From: a bacterium
GTDB taxonomy: Bacteria > Orphanbacterota > Orphanbacteria > Orphanbacterales > Orphanbacteraceae
Direction of reading: 5' to 3'
Length of the DNA: 64,000 nucleotides
NCBI GenBank assembly: GCA_025782575.1
Contig: JALGYY010000043.1
Coordinates: forward strand, 229,093 to 293,092
Part shown: positions 6,518 through 15,245 of the stretch, piece after piece
Position numbering within the stretch: the stretch's first letter is position 1
How the letters are laid out: each line of letters starts with the position of its first letter
Program-made: the position numbers and the translations under genes
The notes under the pieces: generated by a model
Told to the model about the DNA's origin: nothing
What the model saw: the letters and a program-made list of their open reading frames with translations, nothing else
The model's database searches: none

Positions 6518-7897
6518 ATGCCACTCTCACCCGTAGTCGTAACGGGGGTCGGGCCGGTGAGCGCCATCGGGTGCGGCCGGAACGAGTTCTGGGATTCTCT
6601 CGTAAACGGCAGGGACGGCTTCGGCCCGATCACCCTGTGCGATGCTTCTGAATCTCCCTCGAAGATCGGCGCCGAAGTATCGGGCTTCGCTCTAGAGGAC
6701 TTCGTTGCGAAGGGTCACATCATGGGACGTCGAACCCCTCGAGCTGTTCAGCTCGCCCTCGCTTCCGCCGTGCTGGCGCTTCACGACGCCGAGATCGATC
6801 TCGACTCATGCGATGCGGATCGATTCGGTGTGTACGTCGGCACTTCGATGGGAAATATTGACGTAATTCTCAGCTTGAATGCTCGATTGATCAAGCAGGG
6901 CAACGTCCCTGCCCATGCCGCATTTCACGCATTCAATCACTCGGCGGCGTGTGTGATTTCTTCGTTCTTCAATATTCGAGGGCCCATTCAGACAGCCACT
7001 TCGGGGTGTAACTCCGGGATCGACGCGGTCGGCCAGGCGACGAGAATGATCCAGGCAGGTGCAGTCGACGCCATGCTCGTCATCGGCACTGATTGCGAGC
7101 TCGTATCAGAGGTGCTCGCCGCAATGAACGCATCGAATTCACTGACCACCAGATACAACGATGATCCCTCCCGCGCCTCACGACCATGGGACAAGGGGCG
7201 TGACGGCAATGTGATCGGCGAGGGAGCCGCAGGGCTCCTGCTCGAATCCGAGTCCCATGCCCGTTCACGAAACGCACGGATCTATGCGAGCGTCAAGGGA
7301 TACCAGGTTTCATCAGCCGGCCAGAACCGCCAGTACAGTCACGATTCTCCCGAAATCGACATCCGTCCGTGTGTGCGTGCGATGAAAGCCGCAATGGCTG
7401 AGGCCCGCTGGGATGCGAGCGAGGTCGATCTTGTTAACGCAAACGGATCTTCTTCTGTTCTCTACGACAAACTCGAGGGACTCGCGATGGCGGAGGTGTT
7501 CGGGAACCGTCTTTCAGAAACGCGGATCCATTCGCAGAAGTCGATGATGGGACAGCATGGCGCCGGATCGTCCGCCCTGCAGGCGGTGGGAGCCTGTCTG
7601 TCGATCAGGAGGGGAACGGCACCACCGACAATCAATTGTGATGATCCCGATCCCGAATGTGGCCCCCTTCGCATTTCGGGTAAAGCGGAGACTTTCTGGC
7701 CTGAACGTGTCCTGGTTCATTCGATCGGCCTTGGTGGCTTCTACTATTCCGCCGCCGCATTCGAGGCGGTCGAAGATAGCGGATCGATGCAGACCGGCGC
7801 GATCAGCGTTAAGTGGAGCGATGAGAAACACCCGATCTTCCAGCCCACAGAAGAGTTCCAGAAACCGCTCACACCGTGGGAGCCCCGCCGAGACTGA
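6518..7897 (+). CDS. Divergent beta-ketoacyl-ACP synthase (FabF-like fold)
   Basis: VVVTGVGPVSAIG, ATSGCNSGIDAVGQAT nucleophile Cys region, VNANGSSS, KSMMGQHGAGSS, TAPPTINCDDPDPEC. Confidence 0.85.
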   Translation: MPLSPVVVTGVGPVSAIGCGRNEFWDSLVNGRDGFGPITLCDASESPSKIGAEVSGFALEDFVAKGHIMGRRTPRAVQLALASAVLALHDAEIDLDSCDADRFGVYVGTSMGNIDVILSLNARLIKQGNVPAHAAFHAFNHSAACVISSFFNIRGPIQTATSGCNSGIDAVGQATRMIQAGAVDAMLVIGTDCELVSEVLAAMNASNSLTTRYNDDPSRASRPWDKGRDGNVIGEGAAGLLLESESHARSRNARIYASVKGYQVSSAGQNRQYSHDSPEIDIRPCVRAMKAAMAEARWDASEVDLVNANGSSSVLYDKLEGLAMAEVFGNRLSETRIHSQKSMMGQHGAGSSALQAVGACLSIRRGTAPPTINCDDPDPECGPLRISGKAETFWPERVLVHSIGLGGFYYSAAAFEAVEDSGSMQTGAISVKWSDEKHPIFQPTEEFQKPLTPWEPRRD

Positions 7898-10800
7898 TGT
7901 CGAATCCCTCCAGGTATCCGAGCAGGATCGCTCAATTCCGGCTTCTCGAAAAGCTGGGCCGGGGAGGCATGGGCGTGGTATTCAAGGCGCACGATACGCG
8001 CCTCGGGCGGAGTGTGGCCCTCAAGCTATTGAATACCGAGCATGCCGGCGAAGCGGTGTCTCGGAAACGATTGATATCGGAAGCGCAGGCGGCCGCCGCG
8101 CTGAACCATCCTCATATCGCCACGCTGTACGAGATGATCGAGTCCGATCAGGGCCTCTGTCTGGTAATGGAGTATGTGCCGGGTGCGACTCTGGAGAATC
8201 TCCTCCGGCAGAGTCCGGCGACGCCGGACCGGATTATCGTCTGGGCGCGTGCGATCGCCGAGGCAATCGCCGAAGCCCATCGGCACGGGATCGTGCATCG
8301 GGACATCAAAGCGGCGAATGTAATGGTCACGCCGCGCGATTCGATCAAGATTCTCGACTTCGGGCTTGCCCACATGACGAACCGCCTGCTCCAATCAAAC
8401 AAGGAGGGTGCGGATCGTCTCACCGAAGACGGCACGATCGTCGGCACTGTAGACTACCTGGCGCCCGAACTCTTGAGAGGTGAACCGGCTTCACCGGGGA
8501 GCGATGTATTTGCGCTCGGTGTCCTTTTCTATCTGATGACCGGCGGCGCGCTGCCGTTCCGCGGCCGGACCCCCGCTGTGATTCTTACAAAGATACTGAA
8601 CGAGGACGCACCCCCGCTTGAGTGCGAGCCGGGTTCGCCGCTCCAGGCGCTGCATGGTGTGATCCGAAAAGCGCTCGCGAAACAGGCAAGTGAACGATAC
8701 ACCGACGCGGGTGAGCTGGCGACTGATCTCGAAGCCTCAGTCGAATCGCGGAGAATTACCGGCACAGAAGTCGGTGACAAGGGCAAAGAAATTGCCGTCC
8801 CACCGAACAACCTGCCGTCCGACCTGACCCCCTTCATCGGTCACTCGATCGAACTGGACGAACTGGATGCTGCGATCGAAACCGGTCGGCTCATCACACT
8901 CACCGGGCTCGGAGGGACGGGCAAGTCGAGGCTCGCCATTGAACTCGGTCGCCGTCTGATCGATCGCTTTCCGGGCGGAGTGTTCCATATCGATTTCGCC
9001 TCCCTCCAGCCGGATGGTGACGGCATGAGCTTGATCGCCACTGCCGTCGGAATACGCGAGGAATCGCCGAGAACGGTTCTCGATCAATTGATCGATTCGT
9101 TTCGCGATCACCCGACCCTTCTTCTTTTCGATAATTGTGAGCATGTTCTGGATGTGGCAGGGGACTCGGCACGCCGACTTCTGGAAGCCTCCCCCCTTCT
9201 TTGTGTGATCGCGACGAGCCGGGATCGTCTCGAAGTGCCTGGCGAATCGGTTCACCCGGTTCGCGCACTCTCCCTTCCCGATCCGGGCACCAAAAATCTT
9301 TCGATAGAAGAGTTACTGGAGTACGAGTCCGTCCGGCTTTTTGTAGACCGAGCTCTCGCCTCTCACTCTGGCTTCGCCGTGAGCGAGAAGAATGGTGACG
9401 CCGTCGTCAGCATCTGCAGAAAACTCGACGGGATTCCCCTCGCAATTGAACTTGCCGCGGCTCGGACTCGTGTCCTCTCGATCGAACAGATCGATAAACG
9501 ACTTGAAAACCGGTTTCACCTGCTGACCTCCCGGAACCGTAGGACCTCCGCCCGCCATCAGACGTTACGAGCGACGATCGACTGGAGCGTCGATCTTCTG
9601 GACGACCTCGAGAAGCTCCTGTTTTTTCGATCAGGCATATTCCCCGGCAGTTTCGATCTCGGCGCGGCTGAGGTGATCTGTTCAGGCGGGGTGATCGAGG
9701 AGTTCGACGTACTGGACCTTATCTCGACGCTCGTCGACCGCTCGATTGTAGTGGCCGAAGAAGGGGCGGACGGAACGGTTCGATACAGACTCTATGAAAC
9801 TCTTCGAGCCTATGCTTCGGGCGAGCTCGCCGCTGCTGAAATTGAGCCGCTCGGCATTCGCTATGAGAACTATTATTCCGATCTCGCCATGAACGCGGCG
9901 GCCGAGCTGACGGGCCCTGACCAACTCGCCTGGTTTGCGCGGCTTGACCGTGAGTTTGTCAACCTGCGAACCATGCTGGATCGGGCGGCCACGCGAAACG
10001 ATTCGGAAACTCTCCTCGAGACGACCGCCGCACTCGGCCGGTACTGGCTCGTACGAGGGCACCTGTCTGAGGGGCGCCGTCATTCGGAGCGAGCCCTCCA
10101 GTTGGCAAGAAAATCTCGGACTGACGATCTTGTGGCACAGGTGCTTCTCTTTGCCGGCTCCCTCGCGAATGACCAGGGGGATTATGAAACCGCGATTGAA
10201 CGACTGGAAGCGGCCCTTGATATGAGAAAGAAACTGAAAGACAGGAGCGGTGCCGCCGAAGCGGCAGTCAGCCTGGGAATTACCGCCAGGGACCAGGGGG
10301 ACTATGAAAGGGCCGGCCGATTCCTGACCGAGGCAGTTGCGGCGACGAAGAAACTGGGTGAACCGGCGCGGGTCGCCCAGTCAATTCATGCGCTCGGGAT
10401 CACCCGGCATCGTGAAGGCGAGTGCGAACGGGCTGCCGCTCTGTTCGAGGAGGGCCTTGCCATTCGGGAGAGCCTCGGAGATCCGAGAGGAATCGCCGCG
10501 TTTCACGCTCATCTCGGAAGCGTCGCCTACGACCAGGGAGACCTCGACCGATCGACTGAACTGCTGGAACGGGGACTCGCCACGTTTCGTGAAGTAGGAA
10601 ACAGTCGGGGTATTGTTTATGCGTTACTCTATCTGGGCGGTATCGATCGCCGGCATGGTCGCTACGAGGAGGCCCGCACCCGATTCAAGGAATGCCTCGA
10701 TACATCGTATGAACTGGGTGACCGACTTCACGTCGCTCGTTCGATCGAATCATTCGCTCAGCTTGCTGCTGAAGAAGGAAACGGGGAAATTGCCCTTAAG

Positions 10801-10992
10801 TTAGCGGGGGCGGCTGACTCGATTCGATCGTCTCTCGGATCTCTCCGCCCGCCGATCGAAGAGACCGCTTTCCGTGAATCCCTCGCCATGGCGCGAGAAC
10901 AGGCAGGCGAGAAGCGGACGAGGGAATTGATGGAGGCCGGTGCCGCAATATCTTCTGACTCGCAGGGAATCTGTTCTATGCTCACCGACTGA
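7897..10992 (+). CDS. Cytosolic Ser/Thr kinase fused to AfsR/LuxR-type NTPase and TPR repeats
   Basis: LGRGGMGVVFKAHD, HRDIKAANVMV, LDFGLAH; P-loop LTGLGGTGKSRLA, Walker B-like LLLFDNCEHVLD; C-terminal TPR tandem (DQGDYExAxxxxxxAL...). ATG at 7897 overlaps the KS stop (TGATG). Confidence 0.9.
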   Translation: MSNPSRYPSRIAQFRLLEKLGRGGMGVVFKAHDTRLGRSVALKLLNTEHAGEAVSRKRLISEAQAAAALNHPHIATLYEMIESDQGLCLVMEYVPGATLENLLRQSPATPDRIIVWARAIAEAIAEAHRHGIVHRDIKAANVMVTPRDSIKILDFGLAHMTNRLLQSNKEGADRLTEDGTIVGTVDYLAPELLRGEPASPGSDVFALGVLFYLMTGGALPFRGRTPAVILTKILNEDAPPLECEPGSPLQALHGVIRKALAKQASERYTDAGELATDLEASVESRRITGTEVGDKGKEIAVPPNNLPSDLTPFIGHSIELDELDAAIETGRLITLTGLGGTGKSRLAIELGRRLIDRFPGGVFHIDFASLQPDGDGMSLIATAVGIREESPRTVLDQLIDSFRDHPTLLLFDNCEHVLDVAGDSARRLLEASPLLCVIATSRDRLEVPGESVHPVRALSLPDPGTKNLSIEELLEYESVRLFVDRALASHSGFAVSEKNGDAVVSICRKLDGIPLAIELAAARTRVLSIEQIDKRLENRFHLLTSRNRRTSARHQTLRATIDWSVDLLDDLEKLLFFRSGIFPGSFDLGAAEVICSGGVIEEFDVLDLISTLVDRSIVVAEEGADGTVRYRLYETLRAYASGELAAAEIEPLGIRYENYYSDLAMNAAAELTGPDQLAWFARLDREFVNLRTMLDRAATRNDSETLLETTAALGRYWLVRGHLSEGRRHSERALQLARKSRTDDLVAQVLLFAGSLANDQGDYETAIERLEAALDMRKKLKDRSGAAEAAVSLGITARDQGDYERAGRFLTEAVAATKKLGEPARVAQSIHALGITRHREGECERAAALFEEGLAIRESLGDPRGIAAFHAHLGSVAYDQGDLDRSTELLERGLATFREVGNSRGIVYALLYLGGIDRRHGRYEEARTRFKECLDTSYELGDRLHVARSIESFAQLAAEEGNGEIALKLAGAADSIRSSLGSLRPPIEETAFRESLAMAREQAGEKRTRELMEAGAAISSDSQGICSMLTD

Positions 10993-11046
10993 TTACCGGG
11001 TGATCGAGTCGCCGTCCAGTGATTCTCTCCTGAGAGGTGCCTTAGC

Positions 11047-12426
11047 TTGTTAAAGAAAATCTCGTCGAATCTCGGGCTTGGAGGCGGGTTCCGCCGTCTT
11101 ACTGGAGAGATCTGTTTCGCGCTCGTCCTCATGGTAATGATACCTGCTGTTGTCTCGGGCGCCCCGGCAGGTAACGGGACTTCTCCGACCGATTCCACTG
11201 CGGACGCCGCCGACAACCGGTCCATCAGGGGGACGGAGCGTCCCATCGGACGAAACGCGTCTCCTCTGCAGTGGACCGGGCGCACCCTCCTCTTCGTTCC
11301 GTATGCCGCCACTCGGATGGTCACATTCCCACTGGAACGACTCACATGGGCGAATGAACGATACCGCCTGTCGGAGAAGATCGCCGCGACTCTCTTCGGC
11401 ACATACGAATATGGACGAACTGAAGTGGGGACCTTTTTCGGTTACGAAACCGGGATCGGATTCACACTCGCCGGACTCTCTCTCAGGCAGGAAGATTTCA
11501 TTCTACCCGGCACGCAACTCGACTTGAAGGGGGGATACTTTTCGCCCGATCAGAATGTCGTCTCCCTCCATTACAGGGGAGTGCCCCGAACGATCCAGCC
11601 GTGGCTCGTCGGTCGCTTCGACAACCGGGAAGATCGCCCGATCCACGGCATCGGTCCCGGAAGCGGCGAGGACGACTTCGAAGTGAACATGAAAAGGGTT
11701 GCCGCTGAAGGTGGAGTAGTAGTCGGGGCGAACGGCGAGTTTCAGGCAATGGTGACCGGTTTCATTCGAACGCACGATCTCTCGGAACCGAGCAGCGAGA
11801 ATGACGCCGCCATCGCCTTTCCGGAAATCTCCGCGGTGGCCGAAGAGAGCCGGTACGCGGGGGGAGAAGTGGCGATTGCATGGGACGGCCGGAACAACGG
11901 ACCGTTCTCTTCGAAAGGCGGATATCTCAAGGTCGCTGCCGGATTCGACCAGGCTCTATCTGATGAGGATGAGGATTACGATCATCACAGTGTCGAAGCG
12001 CAGGGTTTCTTAAATCTCTTCAATGACAGCCGCGTTCTGGCGTTCCGTGCCTTCGCCGAAGGGATCCGAACAGACGACGCGGCCCAGGTCCCCTGGACGG
12101 AGCAGGAACACCTTGGCGGACGGGACGGGATCCGAGGGTACAGCCGGAACCGGTTTACCGACTTGAAGATGCTTCAGCTCACCGCCGAGTATCGCTATCG
12201 GGTGACCGAGCACGTGTTCGGCGCACTCTTCGGTGACTGGGGAGCGGTCGCCCCCGGCTGGGAGGAGATCCACCCGAATGACCTCGAGTCGGCAATCGGT
12301 CTCAGGCTGCTCTTCGGCGGACGGGGAGATCGCTTCGCGGTCAGCGTAGCCCGCGGCCGTGAAGAGATCGCCATCTACGTCGGAACGGAATCGGTATTCT
12401 CAACGCGGCCCAGGAGATTCCGATGA
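11047..12426 (+). CDS. Omp85/BamA-like outer membrane beta-barrel (surface antigen D15-like)
   Basis: N-terminal hydrophobic signal, beta-barrel alternation, GRDGIRGYSRNRFTD...AEYRYRVTEHVFGALFGDWGAV...SAIGLRLLFGG typical of the Omp85 C-terminal barrel. Confidence 0.75.
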   Translation: MLKKISSNLGLGGGFRRLTGEICFALVLMVMIPAVVSGAPAGNGTSPTDSTADAADNRSIRGTERPIGRNASPLQWTGRTLLFVPYAATRMVTFPLERLTWANERYRLSEKIAATLFGTYEYGRTEVGTFFGYETGIGFTLAGLSLRQEDFILPGTQLDLKGGYFSPDQNVVSLHYRGVPRTIQPWLVGRFDNREDRPIHGIGPGSGEDDFEVNMKRVAAEGGVVVGANGEFQAMVTGFIRTHDLSEPSSENDAAIAFPEISAVAEESRYAGGEVAIAWDGRNNGPFSSKGGYLKVAAGFDQALSDEDEDYDHHSVEAQGFLNLFNDSRVLAFRAFAEGIRTDDAAQVPWTEQEHLGGRDGIRGYSRNRFTDLKMLQLTAEYRYRVTEHVFGALFGDWGAVAPGWEEIHPNDLESAIGLRLLFGGRGDRFAVSVARGREEIAIYVGTESVFSTRPRRFR

Positions 12427-14093
12427 GAAGAGACGGGGGGAATTCCCGCAGGAGCTCGATCCTGCTTGCATGCTTGCTGACAACGGGGATACTGGCGTGC
12501 GCGTCACCACCGGTCAGGTTCGACGGCGGTGCCCCGGTCACCGAGATCGTTGATAGGAAGAACGTAGAAGAGCCGATTGAAACAGAATTTTACAGACAGA
12601 CCCACCATCTGAATAACTTCATCGACCGCCAGATTCGTGTCGGCCTCGACCCGCTCCCCCCTTTGGCCTCGAAAGATGTGAACCGTTATGGCGAGGTCCC
12701 GAATTCCACATGGTACGAGAATCGAAGTGACCGGATCACGCCTGAGAGCGTCGGGCAGGGCGCAGGTGGTGACGATCCGGGACCCGAATCGTACCTGCCC
12801 TGGACGATAGTTCGCATGAAAAGTGGCGGGCGGAATCCCGGATTCATTTTCGAAGATAGTCGGGGGGTAGGCTACATCTGCAAATTCGACAAGCCAGGTG
12901 AACCGGTGATCGCGACCGGAGCGGGAGCGGTTTCAGTGAGACTCTTCTGGGCGCTCGGCTACCACGTGCCGGACGACCGGATCGTCCAGTTCGACAGGGA
13001 CGAACTCATGATCGGCGAAGGGGCGGTCAAAAAGCTGTCAGACGGCAAAAAGGTGCCGATCGAGAAGCAGGATATCGACCGGATGCTCTCCGCTACAGCG
13101 ACCAGGCTCGATGACGGATCGTATCGCGCGCTGGTCAGTCGCTTTCTTCCCGGTCGTCCGGTAGGAGGCTACAGCTATCGCGGCACAAGGGAAGAAGATC
13201 CGAATGACCGGGTACCACACCAGGACCGGCGCTCTCTCCGCGCCCTTCGGGTGTTCGGCGCCTGGCTGAACCATGGTGACCAGAAGATCGACAACACGCT
13301 TGACCTGTATGTCGAAGAGAATGGTATCAACTTCATCCGGCACTATATGGTCGATTTCGACGGCTGTCTCGGCGGCTACTGGGCGGCACGCCACGAAGAG
13401 CGGATCGGATTCGCCTACGAACTGGATATGGGGGAGATGATTTCCGGGATCCCGGCGCTCGGGCTGATCCGGCGCCCCTATGAAAACATGGGAGCTCCCG
13501 TTCATCCTGAAATCGGCCTGTTTGAGTCGGATCGGTTTGATCCGGAGTCGTGGAAGCCGAACTACTTCAATGATCAACTGACTTCGCTTAAAGCCGCGGA
13601 CACCTACTGGGCCGGTACCATTCTCGCCGGGATCGACTCCTCACACATCCGAGAAGCTGTGAAAGCGGCGCGCTTTTCTGACCAGGACGCCGAGACGATT
13701 CTCGCGAACATCCTGGAAGAGCGGCGGATCAAAACGGTCGACTGGGCGCTCCGGCAGGTCACACCCGTTTTCAATCTCGATCGGCTCAAGCAATCGGGTA
13801 TGGAGCTTCGAATTCTAGCGGGGGATGGATTGGTTGATGCGGGTCTTCAATCAGACCTGCAGTACATCGTGGAGTATCTTGACGGGAATGGCCAATCGAT
13901 TGAGAGACGAAAAGCGCCGGCATCGTCGCCGGAAACCGCGATTGCAATTGACCGGCTCAGCGGACTCGAATATTTGATCGTTCGCTGGACTGCGCGGGAT
14001 CAGAACGGCCGCAAACTCCCTCCCACCGAAGCACATTACATTATGGATCAAGCAGATTGGCGACTCGCAGGAATTCTTCGGGACGGCGAGTAA
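12423..14093 (+). CDS. Exported lipoprotein with protein-kinase-like/HipA-CotH-like motifs
   Basis: N-terminal lipobox-like LLTTGILAC; YICKFDKPGEPVIATGAGAVSVRLFWALGYHVPDD; RVFGAWLNHGDQKIDNTLDLYV; HYMVDFDGCLG. ATGA overlap with the Omp85-like gene. Confidence 0.6.
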   Translation: MRRDGGNSRRSSILLACLLTTGILACASPPVRFDGGAPVTEIVDRKNVEEPIETEFYRQTHHLNNFIDRQIRVGLDPLPPLASKDVNRYGEVPNSTWYENRSDRITPESVGQGAGGDDPGPESYLPWTIVRMKSGGRNPGFIFEDSRGVGYICKFDKPGEPVIATGAGAVSVRLFWALGYHVPDDRIVQFDRDELMIGEGAVKKLSDGKKVPIEKQDIDRMLSATATRLDDGSYRALVSRFLPGRPVGGYSYRGTREEDPNDRVPHQDRRSLRALRVFGAWLNHGDQKIDNTLDLYVEENGINFIRHYMVDFDGCLGGYWAARHEERIGFAYELDMGEMISGIPALGLIRRPYENMGAPVHPEIGLFESDRFDPESWKPNYFNDQLTSLKAADTYWAGTILAGIDSSHIREAVKAARFSDQDAETILANILEERRIKTVDWALRQVTPVFNLDRLKQSGMELRILAGDGLVDAGLQSDLQYIVEYLDGNGQSIERRKAPASSPETAIAIDRLSGLEYLIVRWTARDQNGRKLPPTEAHYIMDQADWRLAGILRDGE

Positions 14094-14117: not shown

Positions 14118-15245
14118 TCATCTCCTGGCTGCTAGCTCACCGAGCAGGACATCCGCCACAGCGGCGTGCCCCCCTGCCGTCCAGTGCTGGTTCCAGGGAT
14201 AGTAGAGATAAGGATCGCTCTCCCCTCTTTTGCGGAGCACGCTGAGCAGGTCAACCACCGGAACGCTGAGAGACGCGCCAATCCGGCGAATGCGCTCCTG
14301 GGGCGCGTCACGGTTCCATCGCCTCTCGTCTGCAATGGGATGACGGTCTATGAACTCTTCCCATAGTTCGGGATACACCTGAAACGGCTGAGGAACAACG
14401 ACGAGACGAAGCGAAGCACCCGCCTGTTCGACCTCATCTCGAATCGCGGAGATCAGGCCGCCCATCTCCTGGAAGAGCATGTCCGTCTTTGCATCTAAAG
14501 ACTCCATGAAGAGCGACGCCTCTTCTCCGTAACCCGCTTTCCGCTTCCCGATGATCTCATTCTCTTCGAGTACTCGGCGAAACCAATCGATCCGCGCCCC
14601 GGCCAGAAGCGTGCTGCTGACCAGTCCCGACCGCGCCGCCTGTCGGCGAAGATAGGGCGCTGCCTGGTCAACCGATTCGGTGATCTCCCCCATCCCGACC
14701 TTTGGAACCGGTGTGTTGGTCGCCATGAACCGACCATCAGCCTCTTTCACAACCCGCGGTTTCGGGTAGCCATACCGGACAGTGGCCACGTTGTCGTAAA
14801 GATCGTTCTCCGGATAGATGAACAGGATGACGTCGTCCGGCGCGAAGCGCGCTCCCAGCAAGCGCCAGAGGAGCAGTTCCTGGCCGTTGCCGTAGCCTGA
14901 CACCCCAAGATTCACTACCTCCAAACCGGTCGTCGATTCGACTTCCATGACGCGCGTGAACAGCTGCTCTTCTTCTACGCCGTAACCCCACACGAACGAG
15001 TCTCCCAGCACGACAACCCGTCGGCGATCAGTCCGCTCGAACGGATGTTCCGAGCCTCGAAAACCGTAGCGGTTCTGGCGCACCTCGTGATGCACATCAA
15101 GAGCCGTAAAAGTGGCCGACAGATTCGATTTGCCGACCCACCCGAGCTCCGCATTATAGGTGCAGAATTTTCCCCGCTCGGACTCGATCAGTCCCTGCAG
15201 AACAAAAAGCTGACGCGAATCCGGACGGACCGTACGCAGGGCGAC
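14118..15245 (-). CDS. SGNH/GDSL-type hydrolase; open frame is preceded by an in-frame TAA (15246-15248) that separates it from its N-terminal TM/signal segment
   Basis: VVVLGDSFVWGYGV (block I), VNLGVSGYGNGQE, YPENDLYDN, PWNQHWTAGGHAAVADVL; the frame is open above the GTG at 15095 up to the TAA. Confidence 0.8.
   Translation of the reverse strand, partial: VALRTVRPDSRQLFVLQGLIESERGKFCTYNAELGWVGKSNLSATFTALDVHHEVRQNRYGFRGSEHPFERTDRRRVVVLGDSFVWGYGVEEEQLFTRVMEVESTTGLEVVNLGVSGYGNGQELLLWRLLGARFAPDDVILFIYPENDLYDNVATVRYGYPKPRVVKEADGRFMATNTPVPKVGMGEITESVDQAAPYLRRQAARSGLVSSTLLAGARIDWFRRVLEENEIIGKRKAGYGEEASLFMESLDAKTDMLFQEMGGLISAIRDEVEQAGASLRLVVVPQPFQVYPELWEEFIDRHPIADERRWNRDAPQERIRRIGASLSVPVVDLLSVLRKRGESDPYLYYPWNQHWTAGGHAAVADVLLGELAARR

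Follow-up and report, generated by a model that had tools for sequence, protein, structure and literature searches.

An Omp85 barrel gene paired with the gene for an exported kinase-fold lipoprotein, and its linkage to a predicted ATP/ADP exchanger in relatives

Described systems closest to the locus

The periplasm is usually treated as free of ATP, and CotH is an atypical kinase superfamily that can be extracytoplasmic. The route of ATP across the inner membrane has been described as unknown in a review, which also states that no homologue of an ATP/ADP translocase is known from Gram-negative genomes (PMC7432876). NTT/TLC proteins are found in free-living bacteria, where their role, direction and substrate are unknown (PMC5381601). 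The open-licence literature yielded no description of kinases paired with Omp85 proteins, of a kinase in the periplasm or of a system running on periplasmic ATP.

The window, the whole stretch of 64,000 nucleotides from an uncultured bacterium of Orphanbacterota analysed here, carries a gene pair for an Omp85-superfamily barrel and a kinase-fold lipoprotein. The barrel resembles the "noNterm" Omp85 proteins in its Omp85 barrel, its (V/I)RG(F/Y) motif and the lack of a detected POTRA domain, whereas it has a dedicated kinase-fold partner gene and the word "kinase" is absent from the text of the survey of those proteins (PMC4104836). The kinase-fold protein is comparable to Fam20C, the Golgi casein kinase (PDB codes: 4kqa, 4kqb), as a kinase-fold protein located outside the cytosol. 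However, Fam20C is eukaryotic and lacks a barrel partner, the window family shares only its kinase core (TM-score over target of about 0.39), and the window family gives no Fam20C sequence-family match in Pfam or PDB. The likeness to CtkA and HipA (PDB codes: 3akk, 4pu5) lies in the fold, with a TM-score over target of up to 0.54 to CtkA, and perhaps in the N-lobe motif around the β3 lysine. In contrast, HipA is cytoplasmic and belongs to toxin–antitoxin systems with the HipB antitoxin, whereas the window family carries a signal peptide, ends in an Fn3-like tail and is paired with an Omp85 barrel. The window's own genome also encodes HipA and CotH, each separate from the window kinase. The exchangers found near relatives of the pair share PF03219, the HEAT fusion and a cNMP-binding gene on the 3' side with the NTT–HEAT–cNBD proteins of free-living bacteria, but here they are linked to an exported kinase-fold protein, whereas no role is assigned to NTT/TLC proteins there (PMC5381601).

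The barrel–kinase gene pair

All positions given for the window are on its + strand unless marked otherwise. The barrel gene (11047–12426) has a TTG start, lies 7 bases downstream of the ribosome-binding-like sequence GAGAGGTG (11032–11039) and encodes a protein of 459 aa, which matches the Pfam Omp85 model PF01103 at 38.6 bits (cut-off 24), in agreement with the original prediction of an Omp85-like barrel. PF01103 is matched by 28 of 32 barrel homologues, none of which matches POTRA or any family except Omp85. The Omp85 (V/I)RG(F/Y) loop motif, which reads IRGY in the window barrel (12130–12141), is well conserved in barrel homologues, with R in 63/65, G in 64/65 and F or Y in 63/65. A second, weak barrel match lies inside a 903-aa open reading frame of a Latescibacteria locus (L072, 11864–12466).

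The kinase-fold lipoprotein gene (12423–14093) encodes 556 aa and overlaps the barrel gene by the predicted ATGA stop/start (12423–12426), a 4-base overlap that recurs in several relatives. Conservation of the pairing, proposed as a check on the original prediction, holds across phyla: a same-strand barrel gene is located immediately 5' of the kinase gene in 80 of 87 mapped kinase domains, and since 6 kinases were counted twice via overlapping loci, the figure is about 74/81. Of the seven exceptions, two lie at a contig edge (L025, L032) and one close to the start of its contig (L085); in two the barrel gene is immediately 3' of the kinase gene (L051, L097), and in two no barrel is detectable (L043, L090). 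Distances among barrels and among kinases are correlated (r 0.91, 0/2000 permutations), a relation confounded by the species tree. The gene immediately 5' of the window barrel gene (7876–10992) encodes a cytoplasmic Ser/Thr protein kinase that contains AAA and TPR regions and apparently lies outside the conserved unit. On the other side, a GDSL/AlgX-like hydrolase gene (14118–15095, − strand) is convergent with the kinase gene and unrelated to it.

Sequence searches of Pfam, NCBIfam and PDB gave no match for the kinase-fold protein, either as a single sequence or as a family profile, and the family is without a name, though the parts of the system belong to known superfamilies. About 80 relatives from more than 10 phyla were collected. 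A scan of GTDB genomes with a five-member alignment produced 64 loci, and the alignment was needed to find them: viral and genome contigs searched with a single sequence gave nothing, and a plasmid search gave no match. The 64 loci come from Krumholzibacteriota, Eiseniibacteriota, Zixibacteria, KSB1, Calditrichota, Gemmatimonadota, Balneolota, Acidobacteriota, Myxococcota, Nitrospirota, Latescibacterota and Marinimicrobia. Among seven genomes of the window's phylum, the kinase is present in the window's own genome and three others (4/7), and matches were obtained in 22 of 189 Myxococcota genomes (strong in 20). The window's own genome has another copy of the pair (C2), with 41% identity. The window copy groups with L010 and L011 in a divergent clade of the kinase tree, which suggests some inter-phylum transfer or paralogy, though a tree of this kind cannot prove either.

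Fold, active site and export of the kinase-fold protein

The N-terminus of the window protein carries a signal peptide with the lipobox ILAC ending in Cys26 (12423–12500), followed by A-S, as had been predicted. A hydrophobic export signal is found in 67/67 kinase relatives and a lipobox in 47/67, the remainder resembling signal-peptidase-I substrates. From these signals, the kinase-fold protein is predicted to be exported via its signal peptide, in most cases as a lipoprotein of the outer membrane.

AlphaFold2 with a 67-row alignment gave a model with a pLDDT of 93.5 and a pTM of 0.92; with only 5 sequences the model was poor (pLDDT 51), and the Foldseek list obtained from it was uninformative. 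The predicted fold is two-lobed and protein-kinase-like, so that structure prediction, the other proposed check, favors the kinase assignment. Foldseek against PDB places Fam20C (4kqa) first with an E-value of 7.6e-5 and a probability of 1.00, and lists CtkA (3akk; E 1.7e-4, probability 1.00, TM-score over target 0.51–0.54) and, lower, HipA (4pu5; E 9e-3), full-length TM-scores being modest at 0.3 over the query and about 0.5 over CtkA. Beyond residue 450 or so, the matches are to Fn3-like sandwiches, including monobody/Fn3 structures, and together with the model strands this suggests a C-terminal Fn3/Ig-like β-sandwich at residues ~451–556 (13773–14090). Profile comparison with HipA gives a P-value of 6.4e-5 and a probability of 64% over the N-lobe only, around the β3 lysine; this match is as strong as that of CotH with HipA (7e-5), whereas unrelated neighbour families reach only 0.02 or higher. 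The HipA_C model is not matched by the family, and HipA_2 is matched by 1 of 67 members, at 0.004. CotH membership was rejected, because neither a PF08757 match nor a direct profile-comparison match was obtained. The original description as HipA/CotH-like is thus retained on the HipA side, the nearest folds being Fam20C and CtkA/HipA, and given up for CotH. The fold and profile results therefore point to a kinase-fold family of its own, nearest to the HipA/Fam20C side.

The putative N-lobe covers residues ~127–240 (12801–13142), as judged from the model, conservation and the HipA N-lobe profile match, and includes K133, G136 and K154. K154 (codon 12882–12884), in the YICKFDKPGE segment, is the putative ATP-binding β3 lysine and is conserved in 66/67 aligned relatives; K133 is conserved in 65/67 and G136 in 67/67. 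The catalytic loop is assigned to N283–N291 (NHGDQKIDN, 13269–13295), which has the form H-x-D-x-K-x-x-N, and D311–F312 of VDFDG (13353–13358) is the likely metal-binding DFG-like motif. D286, N291 and D311 are each found in 66/66 aligned relatives having the column, and position 288 is K in 46 and R in 20, so that the family consensus is H-x-D-x-K/R-x-x-N followed by D-F/M-G/A. Two search patterns had been used, one of which covered part of the catalytic loop, and conservation was therefore checked on the rows without that pattern: the active-site residues are equally conserved in these 38 rows, and are conserved in 14/14 members of an independent set found by the full-length profile. The kinase-like motifs that had been noticed in the window are not a chance likeness, because they are kept at such frequencies in relatives. 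Alignment and model together show a complete predicted kinase active site, consisting of the β3 lysine, the HxDxK/RxxN loop and the DFG-like aspartate. With this site intact, the most likely activity of the protein is binding of ATP and Mg, with phosphate transfer to a target in the envelope.

Predicted ATP/ADP exchanger genes and the proposed phosphorylation system

Neighbouring genes were identified by ORF clustering and Pfam, and locus counts were obtained by profile mapping. A gene for a predicted ATP/ADP exchanger of the TLC family (PF03219) occurs in 26 or more of the 64 loci, usually immediately 3' of the kinase gene, and a calcineurin-like phosphatase gene (PF00149) in 11 of 64. The neighbouring TLC proteins score 45–63 bits with PF03219, above the cut-off, and are often HEAT-fused; a cNMP-binding protein and, near some pairs, PAP2 phosphatases are further neighbours. 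The order is barrel–kinase–exchanger in L019, L024, L030, L041, L045 and L066 and barrel–kinase–phosphatase–exchanger in L015, L017, L022, L033, L034 and L063. Given 1–6 exchanger matches per genome of 2.5–11 Mb, the chance expectation is estimated at less than about 2 of 64 loci. Among Myxococcota loci with flanks of only 1.5 kb, the exchanger is immediately 3' in 6 of 12 (L081, L082, L086, L088, L089, L091). The Myxococcota loci L096–L103, chosen for exchanger linkage, are left out of the 26/64 rate, and linkage is 35/79 when they are counted in. In three cultured Fodinibius species, exchanger, barrel and kinase genes are located at one locus (L035, L042, L049). The linkage to exchanger and phosphatase genes in relatives is new here and goes beyond the original prediction.

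The co-occurrence statistics, which ignore kinship among genomes, give the exchanger in 4/4 kinase-positive versus 0/3 kinase-negative genomes of the window's phylum (Fisher p 0.03) and in 15/20 strong kinase-positive versus 46/169 other Myxococcota genomes (odds ratio 8, p 4e-5). The exchanger is present in 20/20 kinase-positive genomes examined and in 0/14 well-known control genomes; 5 of the 20 kinase-positive Myxococcota genomes have no TLC match. Since 46/169 kinase-negative Myxococcota genomes carry TLC genes, TLC proteins have other roles as well. The window locus itself consists of barrel and kinase only, and its closest relatives, L010 and L011, are likewise without an adjoining exchanger. 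The own genome has exchanger genes elsewhere (L092, L093), neither of them adjoining a kinase copy, and one copy matches a PDB ADP,ATP carrier at 4.5e-8. The second copy of the pair (L007) has the order barrel–kinase–TPR–phosphatase, and homologues of this TPR–phosphatase module (58% and 53% identity) are found 3' of the exchanger in two relatives (L094, L095); thus one and the same module is linked to the kinase in one genome and to the exchanger elsewhere.

The best reading, held to be slightly more probable than not, places the pair at the heart of a system for phosphorylation in the envelope: the exchanger of the inner membrane would provide ATP, and the kinase at the outer membrane would use it together with the barrel. 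The exported lipoprotein would transfer phosphate from ATP to an envelope target, and the POTRA-less barrel, its constant neighbour, may be an obligate outer-membrane partner that anchors the kinase, presents its substrate or carries it to the surface. In many relatives, the inner-membrane TLC exchanger encoded in the kinase operon would deliver ATP and recover ADP, and the calcineurin-like phosphatase may reverse the mark or process products. The more specific proposal, that TLC exports ATP to the periplasm, that the barrel-tied lipoprotein kinase acts on envelope or surface targets, that the metallophosphatase reverses the modification and that this system is widespread and undescribed in Gram-negative bacteria, is put forward tentatively, at a little under an even chance. 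An exported kinase with a barrel and exchanger and phosphatase neighbours raises the possibility that ATP-powered phosphorylation takes place in a bacterial compartment believed to be ATP-free. The gene cluster ties an exported kinase-fold enzyme to a predicted ATP/ADP exchanger and so gives both orphan families a testable function; if true, the system would parallel, in bacteria, the Fam20C kinases of the secretory pathway together with the supply of ATP to them, and an ATP-exporting exchanger, if shown, would be categorically new.

The main rival is scavenging of nucleotides or phosphate, with the barrel as entry pore, the lipoprotein as a nucleotide-binding or processing subunit, the metallophosphatase as a nucleotidase and TLC as an importer, because nucleotide uptake is what the characterised TLC proteins, those of intracellular bacteria, carry out, and for the free-living bacteria concerned here the direction of transport is unknown (PMC5381601). 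The metallophosphatase in 11/64 loci and the PAP2 phosphatases near some pairs are also consistent with it. However, a pure binding protein needs no invariant D286, N291 and D311, and Omp85 barrels are protein insertion and translocation devices rather than solute pores, so that scavenging is unlikely. The same invariance, extending over more than 10 phyla, and the exchanger linkage argue against a pseudokinase or scaffold whose fold is kept for binding, the lipoprotein being an accessory that helps the POTRA-less barrel to assemble or export proteins; the strict pairing and the resemblance to BAM accessory lipoproteins would suit this reading, which is judged rather unlikely.

Kinase folds can also AMPylate, as SelO does, and a periplasm generally held to be ATP-free leaves room for an AMPylase or for another phosphorylated donor there. 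Nevertheless, the linked exchanger would be a source of ATP and the order of the H-x-D-x-K-x-x-N loop fits ordinary phosphotransfer, which makes a transfer other than that of the γ-phosphate improbable. That the export signal is instead an uncleaved N-terminal anchor and the kinase faces the cytoplasm is very improbable, in view of the signal in all 67 relatives, the lipobox in 47, the signal-peptidase-I-like cleavage regions in the others and the outer-membrane location of the partner barrel.

Gene arrangements vary around the pair. In a Polyangia contig (L051, 1058–9191), an exchanger gene lies between two barrel–kinase pairs, one of them in reversed order, and in a KSB1 genome (L050, 3439–11093) two tandem barrel–kinase pairs are followed by one exchanger gene. 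In Nitrospirota (L057, 7780–12403; also L058, L061, L065 and L069), a lipoprotein-like gene without a Pfam match is found 3' of the pair together with genes for a cNMP-binding protein, a PAS-type sensor and a response regulator, and a PAP2 phosphatase gene is near the barrel gene. In the window's own genome (L093, 9204–13708, C2), the genes 5' of the exchanger encode an MscS-type channel with a cNMP-binding domain, a metallo-β-lactamase-like protein and a CHASE2–adenylate cyclase, suggesting cyclic-nucleotide control.
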